Shown: one piece after another, positions 1,329-58,644 of the stretch | How the letters are laid out: every line of letters starts with the position of its first letter | How positions within the stretch are numbered: the stretch's first letter is position 1 | Assembly (NCBI GenBank): GCA_030447925.1 | Contig: JAUJNX010000001.1 | Location: 272,037-336,036 of the forward strand | DNA length: 64,000 nucleotides | Origin: Egibacteraceae bacterium | Lineage (GTDB): Bacteria; Actinomycetota; Nitriliruptoria; Euzebyales; Egibacteraceae | Direction of reading: 5' to 3' | Made by a program: the position numbers and the translations under genes | Notes under the pieces: generated by a model | What the model saw: the letters and a program-made list of their open reading frames with translations, nothing else | The model's database searches: none | What the model was told of the DNA's origin: nothing

Positions 1329-3044
1329 CTAGCGGGTGAGGTAGCCCTCGCGCTCGAGGTGCAGCAGGATCTCCTGCGCGGCCTCCTCGGGCGTCAGCGC
1401 GGTGGTGTCGAGCACGATCTCGGCGTCCGCGGGTGCTTCGTAGGGGTCGGAGATGCCGGTGAACTCTGGGATCAGCCCCGCGCGGGCCTTGGCGTACAGC
1501 CCTTTGCGGTCGCGCTGCTCGCAGACCTCCAGCGGCGTGTCGACGTGCACCAAGACGAAGCCGCCGCCGGGCTGGACCATCTCGCGGACGGCCCGGCGGG
1601 TGCCGTCGTAGGGCGCGATGGGGGCGCAGACCGCGATCCCGCCGGCGCGGGTGATCTCGCTGGCGACGAAGCCGATCCGGCGGATGTTGAGGTCGCGGTG
1701 CTCCTTGGAGAACCCCAGCTCGGAGGACAGGTGCTTGCGGACGACGTCGCCGTCCAGCATCGTCACGCTGCGCCCGCCGCGCTCCAGCAGCTTGACCAGC
1801 AGCACGTTGGCGATGGTGGACTTGCCTGAGCCCGACAGCCCGGTGAAGAACACCGTGAAGCCCTGGGCGGCGCGCGGCGGGTGGGTGCGGCGCAGCTCCT
1901 CGGCGACCTCGGGGAACGTGAACCAGGTGGGGATCTCGCGGCCCTCGGCCAGGCGCGCGCGCAGCTGGGTGCCCGAGATCGTCGTGGGGGTGACCCCGGC
2001 GGGGACCTCGTCGTCGGGGACGTAGCGGTCCTCGTCGGCCAGGTAGACCATCATCCGGAACGGCACCATCGCCACGCCGAGCTCGTCGGCGTGGGCCGCC
2101 AGCAGTTCCTGCGCGTCGTAGGGGCCGTAGAACGGCTGCCCGTCGGCGCCGTTGCCCGGGCCCGCGTGGTCGCGCCCCACGATCAGGTGGGAGCAGCCGT
2201 AGTTCTTGCGGATGATCGCGTGCCAGACGGCCTCGCGCGGGCCGGCCATGCGCATCGCCAGCGGCAGCAGCGACAGCATCGCGGTGTCGCGGGGGTAGCG
2301 CCGCAGCAGCGCCTCGTAGCAGCGCACCCGCGTGTAGTGGTCGATGTCGCCGGGCTTGGTCATGCCCACGACCGGGTGGACCAGGAGGTTGGCGCCGGCC
2401 TCGGCCGCCGCGCGCAGCGTCAGCTCCTGGTGCGCGCGGTGCATCGGGTTGCGGGTCTGGAAGGCCACGACCCTGCGCCAGCCCAGCTCGGCGAACGCCG
2501 CGCGCGTCTGCGCGGGGGTGCGGCGCAGGGTGCGGAAGTCGTAGTGCTCGGGGGTGCGGACCGCCTCGACGCGCCCGCCCACATAGACCGGGTTGGACCG
2601 CCCCAGCAGGTGGGCGACGCCGGGGTGGGTGGTGTCGGTGGTGCCGAACACGGCCTCGGCCTCGGCCTCGCGGTCGGGGCGGTACAGCTCCTGGACCGAC
2701 ACGGCGGCGAGCAGCACGCCCTCCGGGTCGCGCAGGGCCAGCACCGCGCCCGGCTCCAGCCGCTCGGCGACCTGCTCGGGCACGTCCAGGGTGACCGGGA
2801 TCGGCCACAGGGTGCCGTCGGCCAGGCGCATCCCCGCGAGCACGGCCGCGTGGTCCGCGCTGCCCAGGAACCCGCGCAGCGGGGAGAACCCGCCGACGGC
2901 GAGCAGCTCCACGTCGCACAGCTGGCGCGGCGTCAGGTCCCACGAGACCCAGTCGCGCGACGCCGCGCGCAGGTCGGCGGCGCGCTGCTCGTCGACCAGC
3001 AGCTCTGTCAGCGCGCCGCCGTGCGGCGCGACGAGATGCTCCAC
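1329..3044 (-). CDS. Bifunctional sulfate adenylyltransferase / adenylylsulfate kinase
   Basis: Makes PAPS from sulfate in two ATP-dependent steps: ATP sulfurylase then APS kinase. Residues 1-390 are a Sat domain, with the PUA-like N-terminal part, the ATP-site motif QTRNPMHRAH near 195-205 and GRDHAGPG near 289. Residues 400-571 are a CysC domain with P-loop GLSGSGKST near 403, DGDVVRKHL, and RDLNIRRIGFVA. All key motifs look intact. The start is GTG at 3044, preceded by a G-rich Shine-Dalgarno-like run. No cysN or cysD neighbour is present. PAPS supply would serve sulfotransferases, such as the candidate encoded at 46-47 kb, or reductive assimilation. The stop of the alditol oxidase lies 53 bp upstream. 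Confidence 0.93.
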   Translation of the reverse strand: MEHLVAPHGGALTELLVDEQRAADLRAASRDWVSWDLTPRQLCDVELLAVGGFSPLRGFLGSADHAAVLAGMRLADGTLWPIPVTLDVPEQVAERLEPGAVLALRDPEGVLLAAVSVQELYRPDREAEAEAVFGTTDTTHPGVAHLLGRSNPVYVGGRVEAVRTPEHYDFRTLRRTPAQTRAAFAELGWRRVVAFQTRNPMHRAHQELTLRAAAEAGANLLVHPVVGMTKPGDIDHYTRVRCYEALLRRYPRDTAMLSLLPLAMRMAGPREAVWHAIIRKNYGCSHLIVGRDHAGPGNGADGQPFYGPYDAQELLAAHADELGVAMVPFRMMVYLADEDRYVPDDEVPAGVTPTTISGTQLRARLAEGREIPTWFTFPEVAEELRRTHPPRAAQGFTVFFTGLSGSGKSTIANVLLVKLLERGGRSVTMLDGDVVRKHLSSELGFSKEHRDLNIRRIGFVASEITRAGGIAVCAPIAPYDGTRRAVREMVQPGGGFVLVHVDTPLEVCEQRDRKGLYAKARAGLIPEFTGISDPYEAPADAEIVLDTTALTPEEAAQEILLHLEREGYLTR

Positions 3045-46314: not shown

Positions 46315-47112
46315 TCACTCCGCGCGGGAGGGGCAGCGACCGCAGTTGCAATCACCCAGATACGCGGCCGTGATCTCCGCGACCGCCCGGTTGAGTTCGC
46401 GGGCCTCCGGGTGGCTTGCCAGGGCCTGCCGGTAACGATCGTCGTCCCGGAAGTGACGCCATCGCTTCAAGACGCCCATGTCCTGGCCACGCCCGTCGTA
46501 GGCGCGGAGGTCGAAGGAGCTCCCGAAGCCATAGCCACTGACCTCGTTCAAGCCCTGGTCGCTGTTCGGCCCGAGGCCTAGCGCGGCGAAGACCTCGTCG
46601 CGGTAACAGCGGCTCTGGAACCACAAGGGGTAGTTGATGGCGCCGCTCGTCGGGTCAGGCTCTCGCACGTAGTCGCGCGCGTACTCCACCCACATGCACG
46701 CAAGTTCTTCGTAGGAGATGGTCATGACCGAGCGCCGCAGACCTCGCTCCTCCAAGCCCTCGTACATCTTGATACGGCTGGCGATGAGGTTGGGGAGATC
46801 CCGCAGTATGTAGCGGGTGGTGCTCGACTTCGGGCGTGCGGCGTAGTGCGGCACTCCTGGGATCTGCGTGTACCCGATGTCCTGGTAGCTGTAGATGGTG
46901 AGGCCGACCCAACGGGTCGGAGCAAAGAGCGGGTCGCCATACTGGGGGACCTTTGGCGGTTCCATGCGGTCGTCATGGACGTCGTTGAAATGTCGTGTCC
47001 TGCGTCCATTATTGGCCGCGCAGGCGATGATCCATCCCAGCACCGCGTGGTTGCCGCTACGGCGAAGCCCGAAGAAGTGGAGCTCGTCCGCCGCCCGATC
47101 GGACACCGTCAC
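46315..47112 (-). CDS. Sulfotransferase-like P-loop protein
   Basis: A 265-residue protein. GLRRSGNHAVLGWI near residues 15-28 resembles the PAPS 5'-phosphosulfate loop (RSG-type) of sulfotransferases, and RYILRDLPNLIASRI fits the 3'-phosphate-binding R…S region. The rest is not diagnostic; two Cys pairs sit at the end (DCNCGRC) and might bind metal. GTG 47112 overlaps the TGA of the LysRS-like gene in a GTGA junction, so the two are translationally coupled. PAPS could come from the enzyme at 1.3-3 kb. Last gene of the island operon; G+C well below that of its neighbours outside. Confidence 0.6.
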   Translation of the reverse strand: MTVSDRAADELHFFGLRRSGNHAVLGWIIACAANNGRRTRHFNDVHDDRMEPPKVPQYGDPLFAPTRWVGLTIYSYQDIGYTQIPGVPHYAARPKSSTTRYILRDLPNLIASRIKMYEGLEERGLRRSVMTISYEELACMWVEYARDYVREPDPTSGAINYPLWFQSRCYRDEVFAALGLGPNSDQGLNEVSGYGFGSSFDLRAYDGRGQDMGVLKRWRHFRDDDRYRQALASHPEARELNRAVAEITAAYLGDCNCGRCPSRAE

Positions 47113-48431
47113 CGGACCGGAACGGGGATGACTTCATCGATTCGAGCGTCGGTTAGGAGCGCTTGGAACCTGTCCAGCCCCATGCCGATGCCGTACATCT
47201 GCGGCAGGCCCATGCGGCAGGCCTGGATGAGCCGGGGGTCCTCAACGGTCGCGTCTTCCTTCGCCTCCTTCGCCTGCGCGGCAAGATTCTGCTGGAGCCG
47301 CACTGGGTCGATCAGCTCGTTGTACGCCTTCACGACCTCGTGGCCGCGGAAGACGACTTGAAAACTGTCAGCGATGGCCGGCTGGTCCGGCAGGGGCGCA
47401 GCGAGCGGCATCTGTCTGCTGAGATAGCCTGTGACTATCGTCACGCCTGTGAGCCGCGGGCGCACTGCCCGCTTGAACAGGTAGTCCAGCAATCCGGAGA
47501 CATACAGCTCCGCGGTCTCCGGATCAAGTATGTTGTGCTGCTTGAGGTAGGACTGGAGAAGGTGCAGTTGCCCGGCCTCGTCCTCCTCGACGAGCTTACC
47601 TAGATCGATATCCAGGTACTCTTCGAACAGGTCGGAGTAGCTACGCGTCGGCGCGTTACCGAAGTTGACGCGATCCGCGCCGTTTATTGCCGCGGCGGCC
47701 CTATCAAGCAGTTCGAGCGACACGGCGACGGCCGCGGGTCGGTCCATGTGGGCCGTATACATCTCTAAGCTGGTGAACTCGGGGTGATGGACCGGACTCT
47801 TGCCCTCGTTGCGAAAGCTGCGGCCGATCTCGTACACCTTTGGCAGGCCAGTGCGGGCCATTTCGAACTTGAGATCGATCTCAGTAGCGATCCTCAGGTG
47901 GTAGACCTCGCCGTTGAAATTGGCCGTGGTCTCGAAGGTCCGAGCGGCAGCACCGGATGCCTGGCGCTGCAACATGCTCGTCTCCATCTCGATGTAGCCG
48001 ATGTTGTCGAGCCAGTTCCGTAGCACCTGGCGGGAGCGCTGGCGATCACGCAGCACCTGGATGTGCGCGGCCTGCCGCTCGTGCCGTTCGGCCTCGTCCG
48101 CACCCGGCCATCGAGGGACCTCGCTGACAGCCTCGACCTGAAAAGAATCAGTGAACAGGGTGATCTGCCCTAAGCCCCGTCGCTTGCTGAGCGCAGATTC
48201 GTCCAGGTGACCTGTGGCGGTCACGATGTCACCGATGTTCGGCGGCGTCAGCGCTTTGTGCTCCTGACCGTCTCCCGCCGGACGTGTTACCGCTATCTGC
48301 TGGAGTGGCTGTCCCGGCAAGCCGACGTCAAAAAATATACTCCCTCTATGTTCACGGACAGCCAGCACCTGCCCGCTCACCGTCACTCCACGGCTGTCGC
48401 GCATCATCTGCACGTCGGACGCAATCGACAT
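47109..48431 (-). CDS. Class II aminoacyl-tRNA synthetase paralogue, LysRS-like
   Basis: A 440-residue protein with an OB-fold N-terminal domain (VTVSGQVLAVREHRGSIFF) and a class IIb catalytic domain. Motif 2 is YEIGRSFRNEGKSPVHHPEF and motif 3 GIGMGLDRFQALL, both with the ATP-binding Arg. It is about 60 residues shorter than housekeeping LysRS and differs at several active-site neighbours (SPVHHPEF rather than SxRHNPEF). It could charge tRNA, but in this operon it more likely activates lysine or a similar amino acid for another acceptor, as EpmA/PoxA does. The upstream AlaRS-like gene ends 30 bp before it. Low-GC codon use unlike flanks. Confidence 0.85.
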   Translation of the reverse strand: MSIASDVQMMRDSRGVTVSGQVLAVREHRGSIFFDVGLPGQPLQQIAVTRPAGDGQEHKALTPPNIGDIVTATGHLDESALSKRRGLGQITLFTDSFQVEAVSEVPRWPGADEAERHERQAAHIQVLRDRQRSRQVLRNWLDNIGYIEMETSMLQRQASGAAARTFETTANFNGEVYHLRIATEIDLKFEMARTGLPKVYEIGRSFRNEGKSPVHHPEFTSLEMYTAHMDRPAAVAVSLELLDRAAAAINGADRVNFGNAPTRSYSDLFEEYLDIDLGKLVEEDEAGQLHLLQSYLKQHNILDPETAELYVSGLLDYLFKRAVRPRLTGVTIVTGYLSRQMPLAAPLPDQPAIADSFQVVFRGHEVVKAYNELIDPVRLQQNLAAQAKEAKEDATVEDPRLIQACRMGLPQMYGIGMGLDRFQALLTDARIDEVIPVPVR

Positions 48432-48461
48432 CGTGTTCGTCGCTATCCAGTCCTGGGTCAG

Positions 48462-49685
48462 CTATCGCGCTGCATGGTGAGCGCGCTCAACGACGGCAAG
48501 TTCTTCTGCCAATAGAAGGGGAGGCAGCCCGTCACGAGAAAGAGGAGGGAGTCGCTCATGGATCCGCAGTATAGAGGTGGCTTTGTTGGCGTGGTCGAAG
48601 ACGTGGCCCTGGCGCTGGGCCTGCGCCCGGCGTCTGTCCAGCCAGCGGCCCGGTCGGCCACGGTCCGCGGCCGCCAAGACCGCTTGCAGGGATTCGTAAC
48701 GATTGCGTAGCATGAGCAAGGCGCGGTCGGCAACCTCGCGCTCCAGCCGCTCCGTCTCGGTCCAAGCCACGGCGAGGCTTCGGACGTCATCCGCCGACAG
48801 GCCGAGGATCTCGCGTTGCACCAAGACGGAGCGGGTGGCGGCATGTACGCCATGCTGCGTGGACGACAGGGGGTGGGGTTGGCGCTCGTTCGCTAGGACA
48901 ACCAGGAGTCCTTGCAGCGCTTCCAGCAAGTTGAGCAGCCGCGGATGCCGGGACCGCTCCGACCCGATTCCGAAGCGCCGCATCATCTCGTCGTCCAGGT
49001 ACGCGCCGGCCGTTCCGTGCATCGCCAGCGAGGTTGCCTCCAGGCCGCCCCCGAAGTCCACCCCGGTGACGGCTCCTGTGGAACCTCGCGTCACAACGAT
49101 GTTGCCCGCCAGCGCCCACGAACCGCCTTGTGGCCGCGCCCACACTTCCAACCCTGCGCCCGTGACGCCACCCCCGTACTTCTTGGTGCGGCGGCCACCT
49201 CGTGAGGGCAGGCCGTTCTCCGGCGAGGCGTCCTCGTACGCGCCTACGTTGAGATCTCGGCCGAGTCGCTCGCTCCAGCGACCGAGGACCTCACGATCGG
49301 CCATGAACAGGATGTCCGGCCGCCCTGCGCCGCAGAGGGCAAACGCCTCTTGGGCCAGCGCGCCATGCAGGGCCACCCTCTCTCCCACGCCTCGCTCGTC
49401 AGTTGACGCATAGCCGCCGTACATGTCGAACAGAGACCTTCTCAGCCCCCGTTCCGCTGCGTGCAGTCCCCCGAGGTCTCTCGCTCGAAAGCAGCGCTGC
49501 ACCATGACGGAGCCGGGCTCGAAGCTCTGGCCGCGGAGCGCCCGCCGGTAGTTGCTCACCGTGCAGGCCGCGAACACGGTGTGCCCGTCTTGGCGGTACA
49601 AGGGGCCAGCCTGAACCGTTGGCAGGCCAGCCCGGTTGTGCACGTCGATGTAGCTGGCCAGGAACCGCTGCGCCTTTTCGTTCAT
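48462..49685 (-). CDS. AlaRS catalytic-domain-like protein
   Basis: A 407-residue protein recognisable only by motifs as an alanyl-tRNA-synthetase-type class II core. FAACTVSNYRRALRG parallels the FTNAGMxQFKPxFLG element, VMVQRCFRARDLGGL parallels QKCIRxGGKHND (motif 2), GLEVWARPQGG parallels EIWNLVF, and VDFGGGLEATSLAMHG parallels motif 3 (VDTGMGLER), but the motif-3 Arg is replaced by Ala. The last 130 residues are helical and unlike the AlaRS tRNA-binding part, and there is no editing or C-Ala domain. It may make an aminoacyl-adenylate, bind a ligand or be inactive. Overlapping operon: 16 bp after the gene upstream. Confidence 0.6.
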   Translation of the reverse strand: MNEKAQRFLASYIDVHNRAGLPTVQAGPLYRQDGHTVFAACTVSNYRRALRGQSFEPGSVMVQRCFRARDLGGLHAAERGLRRSLFDMYGGYASTDERGVGERVALHGALAQEAFALCGAGRPDILFMADREVLGRWSERLGRDLNVGAYEDASPENGLPSRGGRRTKKYGGGVTGAGLEVWARPQGGSWALAGNIVVTRGSTGAVTGVDFGGGLEATSLAMHGTAGAYLDDEMMRRFGIGSERSRHPRLLNLLEALQGLLVVLANERQPHPLSSTQHGVHAATRSVLVQREILGLSADDVRSLAVAWTETERLEREVADRALLMLRNRYESLQAVLAAADRGRPGRWLDRRRAQAQRQGHVFDHANKATSILRIHERLPPLSRDGLPPLLLAEELAVVERAHHAAR

Positions 49686-49701
49686 GTCGCCTGACTAGCG
49701 G

Positions 49702-50490
49702 TCAGAGGACCCGAGGGTCCTTGGGGGCGACGAAGAACCGGAGATGGTCGCGCCAGCCGCGCTGCGGAGCGAGTGGGGCCTCGTGCAGGAGCGTTCGCGC
49801 GTCTCCGTAGTACAGCTCGAGGTCGGGGATCTGCCATGCAGGCAGCGCCTCGCCCGCGGCGTTCAGCGCCGTCTGGTCGCTCAGCGGGTCCAGGTAGCGG
49901 TAGCTGCCCTCCCGCGCCACCGTGCCGCCGCCACGGGCGATGAAGCCAATGAGGCAAGGTCCCGCGTGCACCAGGTCCAGATGGGGGCCGAAGCGATCCG
50001 CGCTGACGTTAGCGGCGAGATCAGTGGTCCCGGAGAACACGGGCTGGACCCCGTTCTCCGTCGGCCTCGTCTCCGGACCGCGATATGTGCGCTTGTGCTC
50101 CATAAGGAGGCCGACGCGCCTGGGTGCGGCGGGATCGTGGAACTCGGCGTCACACACTGCGCCACCCATGCCCAGGCCGACCACCCGGGCGAGCAGTGCC
50201 GCCGCTTCCCAGTAGTCCTCCGAGCCGCTTGGCATGTTCTCGACGGTGGTCCAGCCCAGGCGACTCTTGTAGGACCGGACGACGGCGTCAGCCGTGAAAC
50301 CGAGCAGCGCGTCGGTGGCGTCGACGTCAGACACCAGCGCCAGGCAGCGGTTGATCTGGCAGCGCGGCTGATCCTCGAGGAGGGGCTGCACCAGCCGCGC
50401 GTCGAGCGGCAGTTGCCGGACGGCGGACAGGACTGTCTGGCCGGGCACCGGCCGCCGCCCTGGTAGTGCTCCAAATTCATGTACGGGCAT
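49702..50490 (-). CDS. Unrecognised 262-residue protein of the aaRS-like island
   Basis: First gene of the minus-strand operon. ATG 50490 has GAGGTG eight bases upstream and is chosen over longer starts (50568, 50697). The sequence is soluble-looking, mixed alpha/beta, without signal peptide. Distinctive stretches are INRCLALVSDVDATDALLGF, WTTVENMPSGSEDYWEAA, GLLMEHKRTYRG and RYLDPLSDQTALNA. The EHKR and YLDP segments could be active-site-like but match no family I know. The next gene starts 16 bp after its stop. Confidence 0.6.
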   Translation of the reverse strand: MPVHEFGALPGRRPVPGQTVLSAVRQLPLDARLVQPLLEDQPRCQINRCLALVSDVDATDALLGFTADAVVRSYKSRLGWTTVENMPSGSEDYWEAAALLARVVGLGMGGAVCDAEFHDPAAPRRVGLLMEHKRTYRGPETRPTENGVQPVFSGTTDLAANVSADRFGPHLDLVHAGPCLIGFIARGGGTVAREGSYRYLDPLSDQTALNAAGEALPAWQIPDLELYYGDARTLLHEAPLAPQRGWRDHLRFFVAPKDPRVL

Positions 50491-50773
50491 CGTTGAGCAC
50501 CTCGCGATCACAGGTGGTGACCAGACGTAGATCTCACGGGAGCCGCAGACCGCTGAAGGTACCGTCATCCGCCGCTCATGCTCAATGCCGCCCCGACGGT
50601 GACACCGTGGTCGTCGCGGCGAGCGGCGTGACCTCCCGCCCCGGGCACGACGGAGCGTAATGGACAGATAGCGCTGCGAGACCATTCGGACGGCCAAGGA
50701 CCGGCAACGCTAGGCGATAGTCTCCTGGACTGGTGCGCAGTCCTTGGGTGCCATCACGCGGGAAGGAGGTTGT

Positions 50774-52276
50774 GTGCTAGCGCAGGGCGTTTCGTTGATG
50801 CTGATCGGGTGCGGGCGGCATGCCACGCGTACGTACCTACCCGTCCTGTGCGACGTCGGCATCGGACTGCGGAGCATCGTCGTCGTAGACCTTGCGGAGC
50901 AACTGCCCGAGATCCGCTCATTGCTGGCTGACCGCTTCGGACATCTCGCCGCCCGCGCCGCCTATGTATCGGTGACGGGACGCGACGCTCGACTCATGAG
51001 CGAGAGCTCGGTACTGCCGCCGGGCATCGCAGAAGCGTTGGACGAGGCACGCCGACAGCACTCCATCGACCGGGTTCTGATCTGCACCGCACCTGATTCG
51101 CACCTGGCCTACGCCGACTGGGCGCTGCGACGCTACCTGCACATCTTGATGGAGAAGCCGATCTCGGCGCCGATGCACCTGCGAACAAGTGTGCAAGCTG
51201 TCGGTCGGGTGTGGTCGGACTACGCCTACCTGCACCGTCTGCTCATCGCCCAGCGCAGGGCCCAGCCCGACCTCGTGTTCAACATCATGGCGCAGCGGCG
51301 ATACCACGTCGGCTTTCAGGCCGTACTCGGCCACATCCAGCAGATTGCTGACGACCACGGCGTCGGCGTCACCGCCTTCCAGTCGCTCCATTCCGACGGG
51401 CAGTGGCGTCCACCATTCGAGATGATCGCGCAGGACTATCACGGCTACAACAGCGGGCACGGCAAGGGGCTGCACTCGGGTTACCATGCCATCGACGTGA
51501 CGGACCGAATCGTTCAGCTGTCTCAGTCGCATCGCCTCGAACCCGAAGTGCACGCCAACTTCGTCTACCCCGGCGACTATCTTGCGGCCTTCGCTGTGCG
51601 CGACCAGTACGGCATGCTTGGGCAGGAGGTGAGCGAAGCGGAAGCCGAGCGTGCGGAGGAGGAGTTGGCCGGCGCGCAGGGGGTCAGGTATGGCGAGGTA
51701 AGCGGCCATCTATCCGTCGCGTACAGGGATCCTCGCGGCCGGAAGACCTCTGCCGGAACCGTCGCGCTCCTGCACGATGGCGTGTCGCAGCGAGGTTGGG
51801 CGCATGCGCACAAAGAGGACCTCTATCAGAACGGCCGGGTGCGCCAGGAGTCGCACTACTATGCCTCGGGGCCACTCCAGGTCATCCAGGTCAGCGCCAA
51901 CGAGGGGCGGGAGCGCAGACAGGGCAATATGCGGGGTGATGAGAACTCCTACGACTTCGTCATCGATGTCTACAGGAACGCGGCCGCGATGAAGGGTGAG
52001 CTGCCGTACCAGCGGCTCGGGATCGGAGAACTCTACCGTGATCGCGGCTTGGTGATGGGCGACCCAATGAAAGACGCCCGCCGGTACGCCCTCCTCGACT
52101 TCTTCAACTGCATAGGCAGCGGCCGCACGAGCTCAACGTCCGATTACACCTCGCACGAGAGCACCGTGCGCATTCTGGCGAAGATGTATGAAAGCGCGCT
52201 TCGCCAGAGCGATCATTCCCAGTACCACCGCTTCGATACAGCCGTTGCTGTGCCGCTGCCGCACTCTGCTCCTTGA
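50774..52276 (+). CDS. Gfo/Idh/MocA-family oxidoreductase
   Basis: A 500-residue NAD(P)-dependent dehydrogenase. LIGCGRHATRTYLPVL near the start is the dinucleotide-binding GxGxxA-type loop, ICTAPDSHLAYADWAL the middle, and LMEKPISAP near 125 contains the EKP catalytic Lys motif. YHGYNSGHGKGLHSGYHAID carries His/Asp residues suited to substrate binding. It is longer than typical members (about 350), with extra C-terminal sequence (residues 300-420). GTG 50774 has AAGGAGG 4 bases upstream, which decides the start. Divergent from the aaRS-like operon across 283 bp. Substrate is likely a sugar, inositol or sugar-like carbonyl. Confidence 0.85.
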   Translation: MLAQGVSLMLIGCGRHATRTYLPVLCDVGIGLRSIVVVDLAEQLPEIRSLLADRFGHLAARAAYVSVTGRDARLMSESSVLPPGIAEALDEARRQHSIDRVLICTAPDSHLAYADWALRRYLHILMEKPISAPMHLRTSVQAVGRVWSDYAYLHRLLIAQRRAQPDLVFNIMAQRRYHVGFQAVLGHIQQIADDHGVGVTAFQSLHSDGQWRPPFEMIAQDYHGYNSGHGKGLHSGYHAIDVTDRIVQLSQSHRLEPEVHANFVYPGDYLAAFAVRDQYGMLGQEVSEAEAERAEEELAGAQGVRYGEVSGHLSVAYRDPRGRKTSAGTVALLHDGVSQRGWAHAHKEDLYQNGRVRQESHYYASGPLQVIQVSANEGRERRQGNMRGDENSYDFVIDVYRNAAAMKGELPYQRLGIGELYRDRGLVMGDPMKDARRYALLDFFNCIGSGRTSSTSDYTSHESTVRILAKMYESALRQSDHSQYHRFDTAVAVPLPHSAP

Positions 52277-57786: not shown

Positions 57787-58644
57787 ATGGACCATCACGA
57801 CGCGCGACCGCACCGGGTGGGGTTGGCGGCGCTCCACCACGACCCCGCGGGGTCGTGGGCGCCACGGCTGGAGCGGCACCTGCTCGCCCTCGGCTCGCTG
57901 TTCACCGGGATGACGGTCCTCCGATCGGCCGCCACCGACGACCGCCTGCTGCGCGCGCACGGGGTCAGGACCGAGGTCGACCCGCCGGTCGCCGGGCCGG
58001 CGCGCATCGGCCACCTGCGCGTCGCGGTGCTCGGGGCCGCGCTGGCGCAGGGAGCGCGGCCGCTGCTGTTCTGCGACCTCGACCGGCTGCTGGTCTGGAT
58101 CCGCGACCGGCCGGGGGAGCTGGCCTCCGCGGTCGCCGAGGTCGGGCGAGCGGACTGCACCGTCTTCGGTCGCACGCCGCCCGCGTTCGCGTCCCATCCC
58201 CGGGTCCAGCGGGACACCGAGGGGCTCGTGAACGAGGTCTACGGCATCGCGACGGGTACCGGATGGGACATCACGGCGGCCGCCCGGGGCCTCAGCGCTC
58301 GGGCTGCGCGCCTGCTCGCCGCCTCCGAGACCGGCCGGTACGGCGTCGGGACCGATGCCGCCTGGCCGCTGCGGGTGCGGTCGGAGTCGGGGCTGACGCT
58401 GGCCTACCGCGAGGTGGAGGGACTGCGCTTCGAGTCCGCGGACGGCGCCGGCGACGAGGTGGAGCGGGCAGGCGGTGTCGCCGCATGGATGCGGGCGCGT
58501 GACGAGGACGCCGATGGCTGGGCCCAGCGCGTCGCCTTCGCGCGCCAGACCGTGACGGCCATCCGCGATCTCGCCCCCCTCGGGGGTCCGCCTGGCGGCC
58601 TCAGTCCGCCGGCGCCGACAGGTAGCGCAGGCAGAGGCGGGTGA
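57787..58644 (+). CDS. Hypothetical protein with a DxD-like motif
   Basis: A 285-residue soluble protein. HRVGLAALHHDPAGSW, then ARIGHLRVAVLGAALAQG, PLLFCDLDRLLVWIRDRPGE and VFGRTPPAFASHPRVQRDTE are its clearest stretches. FCDLDRLL looks like the acidic DxD motif of GT-A glycosyltransferases or a HAD-like Asp pair, but other motifs do not follow. ATG 57787. The 3' end overlaps the convergent TetR gene by 44 bp. Function not assigned. Confidence 0.6.
   Translation: MDHHDARPHRVGLAALHHDPAGSWAPRLERHLLALGSLFTGMTVLRSAATDDRLLRAHGVRTEVDPPVAGPARIGHLRVAVLGAALAQGARPLLFCDLDRLLVWIRDRPGELASAVAEVGRADCTVFGRTPPAFASHPRVQRDTEGLVNEVYGIATGTGWDITAAARGLSARAARLLAASETGRYGVGTDAAWPLRVRSESGLTLAYREVEGLRFESADGAGDEVERAGGVAAWMRARDEDADGWAQRVAFARQTVTAIRDLAPLGGPPGGLSPPAPTGSAGRGG

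Follow-up and report, generated by a model that had tools for sequence, protein, structure and literature searches.

A five-gene island of foreign composition in an Egibacteraceae bacterium, with an AlaRS-derived protein lacking the motif-3 arginine: a possible tRNA-dependent aminoacylation cluster

The stretch of DNA analysed here (64,000 nucleotides of contig JAUJNX010000001.1 from an Egibacteraceae bacterium; hereafter the window) contains an island of five genes at window positions 46315–52276. Four genes, A–D, lie on the minus strand and a fifth, E, is read divergently on the plus strand. The island combines two relatives of class II aminoacyl-tRNA synthetases (aaRSs), namely B, which resembles lysyl-tRNA synthetase (LysRS), and C, a truncated relative of alanyl-tRNA synthetase (AlaRS), with a sulfotransferase-like protein (A), an orphan protein (D) and an oxidoreductase of the Gfo/Idh/MocA family (E). 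Judged from its sequence, C is a descendant of AlaRS in which residues of amino-acid activation have been lost. The island is tentatively read as a biosynthetic cluster that would put an amino acid on a small, probably sulfated acceptor via aminoacyl-tRNA, a reading to which a probability of approximately 0.4 is given.

The minus-strand genes are closely packed, with 16 bp between D and C, 30 bp between C and B and a 4-bp overlap (GTGA) shared by A and B. The starts of D and E were refined: D most likely begins at the ATG at 50490, giving 262 instead of 331 amino acids (aa), and E at the GTG at 50774, which is preceded by GGAGG, giving 500 instead of 510. The region between them (50491–50773) is presumed, from a reading of the sequence rather than a promoter scan, to be the promoter region. 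The G+C content is 65.1% inside the island and 75.0% in the remainder of the window, and since the lowest of 462 overlapping segments of the same length taken off the island is 72.5% (range 72.5–77.1%), the drop exceeds local variation. The G+C content at third codon positions (GC3) is 0.77–0.83 in A–E, whereas the 43 other gene calls whose coding score exceeds 30 have a mean of 0.970 and a minimum of 0.918. That set comes from a gene caller favouring high GC3, and calls of lower score, among them one at 57787–58644 with a GC3 of 0.902, were left out of it. A preliminary description of this DNA had reported a sharp drop in G+C, and its counts for three 60-base lines (37/60, 34/60 and 47/60) were exact on recount; its coordinates, strands, gaps, GTGA overlap and divergent fifth gene were likewise confirmed. 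Neither an obvious flanking repeat nor a tRNA close by was found as a mark of insertion at the island ends. The island is small and of foreign composition, and it is tentatively read as horizontally acquired.

Gene C (48462–49685, minus strand) encodes 407 aa without an editing domain. Searches of C against Pfam, NCBIfam and PADLOC gave no match, and the PDB gave one chance match (E-value 0.3). The first hint of kinship was a resemblance, noted by eye, to what we take to be the first ∼400 residues of AlaRS. A profile built from eight remote relatives, without C, recovered C with an E-value of 1.8e-9 among five proteins of the window, the next being B at 0.26. Comparison of C with the eight relatives by hhalign gave 87.0% (score 50.5; the best of 100 shuffles reached 24.0), and with an alignment of eleven rows 95.6% (score 68.3; the best of 150 shuffles reached 22.9). 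Since the C-free profile finds C and hhalign scores it above all of these shuffles, C is placed in an AlaRS-derived family. Its identity to the relatives is 15–21%. The nine members of the family are 274–453 aa long and have no editing domain; C consists of a catalytic and a tRNA-recognition part. In all nine, the ATP-binding arginine of motif 3 (G-x-G-L-E-R) is gone, being replaced by Ala in C (GGGLEA), by Thr in seven relatives and by Met in one, and the GPCGP segment is altered. Pfam scores five of the seven members tested below its AlaRS cut-off.

The eight relatives are those at loci L073, L074, L163, L164 and L173–L176. The L074 protein led to two more copies, both in one genome (G508) among 332 of its phylum; five weaker matches (E-values 4e-8 to 6e-7, in frames of 571–646 aa) are not part of the eight. 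A profile of L074-type proteins and C gave eight matches in 246 Streptomyces genomes, of which four lack the arginine (L173–L176), three are truncated with an intact motif 3 (L178–L180) and one is a full-length AlaRS (L177); the first four were also found by a profile without C, at E-values of 4.3e-30 or better among 145 open reading frames (ORFs). The three truncated proteins with the arginine kept are likewise left out of the eight; they lie at L178:8619-9785, L179:9542-10708 and L180:8364-9569, are 388–401 aa long with motif 3 as GLGLERL, and have seemingly unrelated surroundings. A profile including C matches 360 of 386 same-phylum genomes at an E-value of 1e-5, the listed matches lying mostly in frames of AlaRS length, and only the window reaches a family-level score (3e-102; next 1e-18), so that C-type genes are rare in the host phylum. 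A search with C itself through 61 relatives and through 396 genomes of the same phylum gave, the host aside, eight weak matches spread over seven genomes; the seven loci inspected, five of them a second time, looked like chance. Nothing was found for C in plasmids or in a collection of genome contigs, and a single scan with the L074 protein gave no relative in viral contigs.

The surroundings of the remote relatives fall into two kinds. At L073 (Omnitrophota) and L074 (Parcubacteria), a 337-aa AlaRS-like protein, which matches PF01411 just under the cut-off (E-value about 1e-6), is encoded in tandem with a prolyl-tRNA synthetase (ProRS), a relative of E and a radical-SAM/SPASM protein; the gaps in L074 are 94, 65 and 60 bp. 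The genome of L073 (G419) has a second, weaker ProRS match, so that the clustered ProRS may be an extra copy there; no second ProRS was found in that of L074 (G418). At the other six loci (L163, L164 and L173–L176), a peptidase of family S66 (MccF type) is encoded within 6 kb of the C-type gene, which it adjoins in L163, L164 and L176, whereas in L173 the distance reaches 6 kb. Five of the eight loci (L163 and L173–L176) have a class II paralogue within about 9 kb that is here labelled AsnRS-like (asparaginyl-tRNA synthetase-like), Pfam giving PF00152, which covers the D, K and N synthetases; the match in L173, ∼9 kb away, is incomplete at the end of the stretch. No aaRS gene was recognized in L164. 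An ATP-grasp gene is present in four loci (L173–L176) and a methyltransferase gene in L174, L175 and, by eye, L163, and in L176 a fused glycyl-tRNA synthetase (GlyRS) adjoins the AlaRS-like gene. The Streptomyces clusters extend over L174:4607-13098, L175:1888-11444 and L176:5575-15247. The small genome G508, from the phylum of the Parcubacteria genome, holds two separate pairs of AlaRS-like and S66 genes (L163:7433-11381 and L164:9489-11319). No relatives of E or A were matched in the six S66 clusters at an E-value of 1e-4.

Gene B (47109–48431, minus strand) encodes 440 aa and matches PF00152 with an E-value of 1.3e-43, the oligonucleotide-binding (OB)-like region giving only a weak match (E-value 0.067). 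Its best solved-structure match in the PDB is LysRS 3a74. Against two LysRS models of NCBIfam it scores 221 and 203 bits, below the cut-offs of 468 and 428, and the host has a separate LysRS (G000:C11:69606-70895) that is 34% identical to B; B is thus not the housekeeping LysRS, as it lies below the family cut-off and the LysRS of the genome is not single-copy. Motif 2 (FRNEG), motif 3 (GIGMGLDR) and the ELIDP segment are kept, the OB-fold region is divergent, and 22 of the 34 positions invariant in 17 LysRSs from relatives (17 of 18 loci passing a motif filter) are retained. B is thus, by its sequence, a diverged extra LysRS paralogue that may well be active. No relative of B was found in viral contigs. 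A match to a LysRS on a Streptomyces plasmid (H10) was rejected as a relative of B, the locus concerned (L070) appearing to encode a LysX-type fusion. The preliminary description had spoken of two class II paralogues, which stands for B and, by profile, for C, the latter in a much altered form; its labels for the other three proteins held as well, by motif for A, by the lack of any match for D and by PF01408 for E.

Gene A (46315–47112, minus strand) encodes 265 aa and is classed as sulfotransferase-like by motif only. It contains a GLRRSGNHA loop and an LRDLPNLIASR segment, mostly invariant in a three-sequence alignment, which we take to be of the 5′-phosphosulfate-binding (5′-PSB) and 3′-phosphate-binding (3′-PB) type, respectively. 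Its relatives, with 27–32% identity, were found in four plasmid records, and the one from Paracoccus lies on a plasmid segment that also encodes glycosyltransferases and a protein annotated as a sulfotransferase; a search in phages found nothing. Gene D (49702–50490, minus strand) had no match in plasmids in its longer reading, and its predicted structure, from a single sequence, had a pLDDT (predicted local distance difference test) of 32.6, unusable for a fold search. By eye, an H-x-D … H … R arrangement in D suggests a likeness to Fe(II)/2-oxoglutarate oxygenases. With regard to the supply of sulfate donor, the host has three matches to adenosine 5′-phosphosulfate (APS) kinase that exceed the cut-off. 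Two of these span the full length and are almost identical to each other; they are copies of a 571-aa protein of ATP-sulfurylase/APS-kinase type, labelled APS kinase by the Pfam model and for the remainder by eye, at window positions 1329–3044 (minus strand), ∼43 kb from the island, and at ∼286.0–287.7 kb of G000:C26. Given these genes, 3′-phosphoadenosine 5′-phosphosulfate (PAPS) should be available to A. The two 1.74-kb copies are 99.4–99.7% identical, which indicates a recent duplication in the host genome.

Gene E (50774–52276, plus strand) matches PF01408 with an E-value of 3.6e-6 and 28.1 bits, above the gathering cut-off of 24; in its E/D-K-P segment, K and P are invariant in a seven-row alignment. 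Among 396 same-phylum genomes, only the host matched at an E-value of 1e-10, and the alignment found nothing in viral contigs. In a collection of one genome per species (84,980 species), the seven-row alignment found 75 E-type loci, in archaea, Patescibacteria, Omnitrophota, Bacilli, Clostridia, Chloroflexi, Chlamydiae, Streptomyces and others. E is a member of a broad Gfo/Idh subfamily whose partner genes vary, and therefore does not name the substrate. Nine plasmid records match E, seven of them aligned over at least 80% of its length. E alone was rejected as a marker of the system: of the seven plasmid loci with a full-length relative, six were read, and there it is part of another conserved cluster. 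This streptomycete plasmid cluster (L010, L011, L012, L013, L065 and L066, with small variations and differing annotation) comprises genes for a coenzyme A (CoA) ester lyase, MaoC, GNAT, an aminoglycoside-phosphotransferase-like protein, Ldh-type and LLM oxidoreductases, the E relative, a second phosphotransferase, an NAGPA-like protein and a PIG-L deacetylase. At L088:10001-11953 and L097:9920-11740, the relative of E is extended at its C terminus, the extension in L088 looking NUDIX-like by eye, and 21 loci with E relatives, from metagenome-assembled genomes (MAGs) of Bacilli and other Firmicutes or Tenericutes, share a gene that by eye resembles a LysR-type regulator. In a Nanoarchaeales MAG (L083:2179-9709), an E relative is followed by thymidylate-kinase-like and NUDIX-like genes (by eye); a facing operon holds AsnRS-like, ProRS-like, methyltransferase and S51 peptidase genes, and this AsnRS-like protein is a relative of its S66-cluster namesakes (27%, E-value 5e-20). 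LysRS and ProRS genes near the E relative in L088 were rejected as a similar cluster, its ProRS being the only one found in the genome at an E-value of 1e-10.

The island is flanked, by Pfam, by an aldehyde dehydrogenase gene on one side and a gene for a PaaA-type protein on the other, and further neighbours, identified by eye from their translations, encode a DUF2795-like protein, an enoyl-CoA hydratase and a thioesterase. The flanking PaaA gene is present in four of 21 genomes, one of which is the host (assembly size 4.66 Mb), and the other flanks have no close counterpart in the two stretches read.

The closest parallel for the island is the ascamycin pathway of Streptomyces sp. 80H647. There, AcmF is a truncated AlaRS-like protein that has lost most activation residues and moves Ala from Ala-tRNA to dealanylascamycin, a nucleoside sulfamate, and AcmD is a full AlaRS that serves as the charging enzyme and is more resistant to the product than the ordinary AlaRS (PMC12945691); the table of the acm cluster also includes a sulfotransferase, AcmK (PMC4257720). 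Aminoacylation of a sulfated acceptor through tRNA is proposed for the island because each of these three roles has its counterpart in B, C or A, a LysRS-like enzyme standing where acm has AlaRS. B would activate lysine or a lysine-like amino acid and load a tRNA, and is possibly also a product-tolerant copy that confers self-resistance. C, which would no longer activate an amino acid itself, would transfer the aminoacyl group from the tRNA to the acceptor, as AcmF does. A would sulfate the acceptor with host PAPS, E would oxidize it, the acceptor being of sugar or nucleoside type, and D, perhaps an oxygenase, would tailor it. We infer all of the catalytic steps, the choice of lysine, the acceptor, the order of steps and the resistance role of B. 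Perhaps the product imitates an aminoacyl-adenylate, which is considered rather unlikely. The earlier proposal of an aminoacylated, possibly sulfated product thus fits the combination found in ascamycin (a truncated AlaRS-like protein, a full aaRS and a sulfotransferase), and its suggestion of a sugar or inositol origin does not gain from E, whose relatives stand in very different clusters.

Several results weigh against the proposed aminoacylation pathway. In comparison with a profile of housekeeping AlaRSs, the expected segment of C (45–96, motif 2) ranked top, but its score of 24.6 lies within that of shuffles (≤25.0, n = 10); this profile comprised 13 of 19 given loci (20 fetched), with rows kept only if they had the motif-3 pattern, so that their arginine is present by construction. 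Against the first four relatives, C was marginal at 26.8, the figure for 200 shuffles being 25.9 and that for 200 other ORFs 25.5. The Asp preceding motif 3, which C retains, is replaced by Glu in five relatives and by Gly in the other three. The predicted structure of C, from a three-row alignment, had a pLDDT of 36.0 and was unusable for a fold search. The likeness of C to AcmF is drawn from published descriptions of AcmF. A has no family match in Pfam, NCBIfam or the PDB, D has no match in Pfam or the PDB up to an E-value of 10, and the five proteins have none among nucleoside-biosynthesis, sulfamate-forming or transport families in Pfam and NCBIfam. Recurrence of the gene set elsewhere, which the preliminary description had proposed as a check, was found in part: an AlaRS-like protein, a full class II aaRS and a Gfo/Idh protein occur together in L073 and L074, two of the 75 E-type loci, no AlaRS-like gene being found in the other 73 with the L074-type profile, and the full five-gene set was found in no other locus. 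As these two loci share approximately 90% identity (90% for the AlaRS-like protein and 87% for ProRS), they represent one lineage, or one of them is misbinned, and the recurrence of the trio is essentially one event besides the window. The proximity of S66 and aaRS genes to C-type genes is an association without a background rate from random genes, and two S66 and one S51 queries had no match in the 64-kb window at an E-value of 1e-4.

Other explanations were weighed against the same evidence. B and C could act on a macromolecule, with B activating lysine, as EpmA does for elongation factor P (EF-P), and C serving as an adaptor, as HisZ does; their target, be it a protein, a lipid or a surface glycan, would also be modified by A, D and E. 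The relationship of B to the LysRS/EpmA branch and the setting of the Paracoccus relative of A, among glycosyltransferases and a sulfotransferase, are consistent with this; however, B scores 131.8 bits against the model of EpmA, the EF-P lysyl ligase, where the cut-off is 286.9, and keeps a weak OB-like region, which EpmA lacks. Matches to EF-P, MprF or lipid transferases are absent among the five proteins in Pfam, and the MccF-type peptidases and ATP-grasp ligases near the relatives of C suggest small molecules, so that action on a macromolecule appears unlikely. An equally improbable account is that B is a spare or antibiotic-resistant LysRS, C an unrelated passenger and the island a group of foreign genes brought together by chance. 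Additional copies of aaRSs are known to serve as resistance genes, and the scarcity of AlaRS-like genes among E-type loci and the failure of the full set to recur fit such an account, but the tight operon, its uniform foreign composition and the closely spaced tandem of AlaRS-like, aaRS, Gfo/Idh and radical-SAM genes in L074 argue against it.

The loss of the motif-3 arginine from C, together with its strong divergence, could also be a sign of decay, C being inactive and the product of the island no longer made. The five open frames with plausible starts and spacing speak against this, as does the same loss in all eight remote relatives, which is expected for a changed function, and decay is regarded as quite unlikely. 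A tRNA-directed defence or toxin–antidote module, in which tRNA would be the target of C or B when a phage infects, would account for the presence of two relatives of tRNA enzymes among genes of foreign composition, and a defence module had been one of the earlier suggestions. It found no backing: the sole PADLOC match, in a scan of the island proteins only, has an E-value of 0.017 over part of B, the relatives of C stand in metabolic-looking clusters and one scan each with B and the L074 protein gave no relative in viral contigs. Defence is thus very improbable.

S66 MccF and S51 MccG cleave toxic aminoacyl-nucleotides (PMC9239234), and the presence of such peptidases near C-type or E-type genes suggests that the family of C is directed to aminoacyl-nucleotide compounds. 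It is conceivable, if rather doubtful, that the island is the lysyl branch of an unrecognized group of clusters that cross phyla, built around AlaRS-derived transferases without the arginine, with an aaRS or aaRS-like partner, an aminoacyl-nucleotide-like aaRS inhibitor as product, and protection by a tolerant aaRS (here B) or an S66/S51 peptidase. The producers would then include Candidate Phyla Radiation bacteria and perhaps archaea, groups from which antibiotics are hardly known. Should C and its relatives work in the manner of AcmF, this dispersed family would provide a handle for natural products that depend on aminoacyl-tRNA, the neighbouring aaRS or peptidase gene hinting at target and self-protection. 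It would furthermore show a synthetase losing activation yet keeping acyl transfer, making a step of aaRS evolution testable through the relatives.

The preliminary description had known of no system with this gene set. A literature search, mostly outside subscription journals, likewise found no description of the set, or of C-type clusters beyond ascamycin, and the full set was found nowhere; ascamycin, however, partly resembles it. Microcin C is linked to the island only through the S66/S51 peptidases of the relatives, the window having no S66/S51 match, and the five proteins include no ThiF family in Pfam; precursor peptides were not searched for. The S66-peptidase clusters share with the island the AlaRS-derived family of C and have a second aaRS-like gene in five of six cases and an ATP-grasp gene in four of six. 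VlmL/VlmA, the LysX-type fusions and SbzA are like the island in having a pathway-dedicated aaRS or aaRS-like paralogue (PMC2922099, PMC9113183, PMC12945691); their aminoacyl transferases are of MprF/GNAT fold or IleRS-like (isoleucyl-tRNA synthetase-like), in contrast to the AlaRS-derived C. The acm genes for sulfate activation, an amidinotransferase, radical-SAM proteins and export have no match among the five island proteins, and the island differs from acm in its Gfo/Idh and orphan genes and in a LysRS-like instead of an AlaRS partner. The changes N219Q and D232E described for AcmF are seemingly absent from C, which keeps Asn and Asp if the columns are equivalent, as assumed; at the column of the Asp, Glu occurs in five of the eight relatives. 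In the literature found, AcmF is the only characterized AlaRS-derived aminoacyltransferase. Both systems combine an aaRS-derived transferase with a full aaRS and a sulfotransferase or sulfotransferase-like gene, and both AcmF and C are truncated AlaRS-like proteins with aminoacylation and tRNA-recognition parts.

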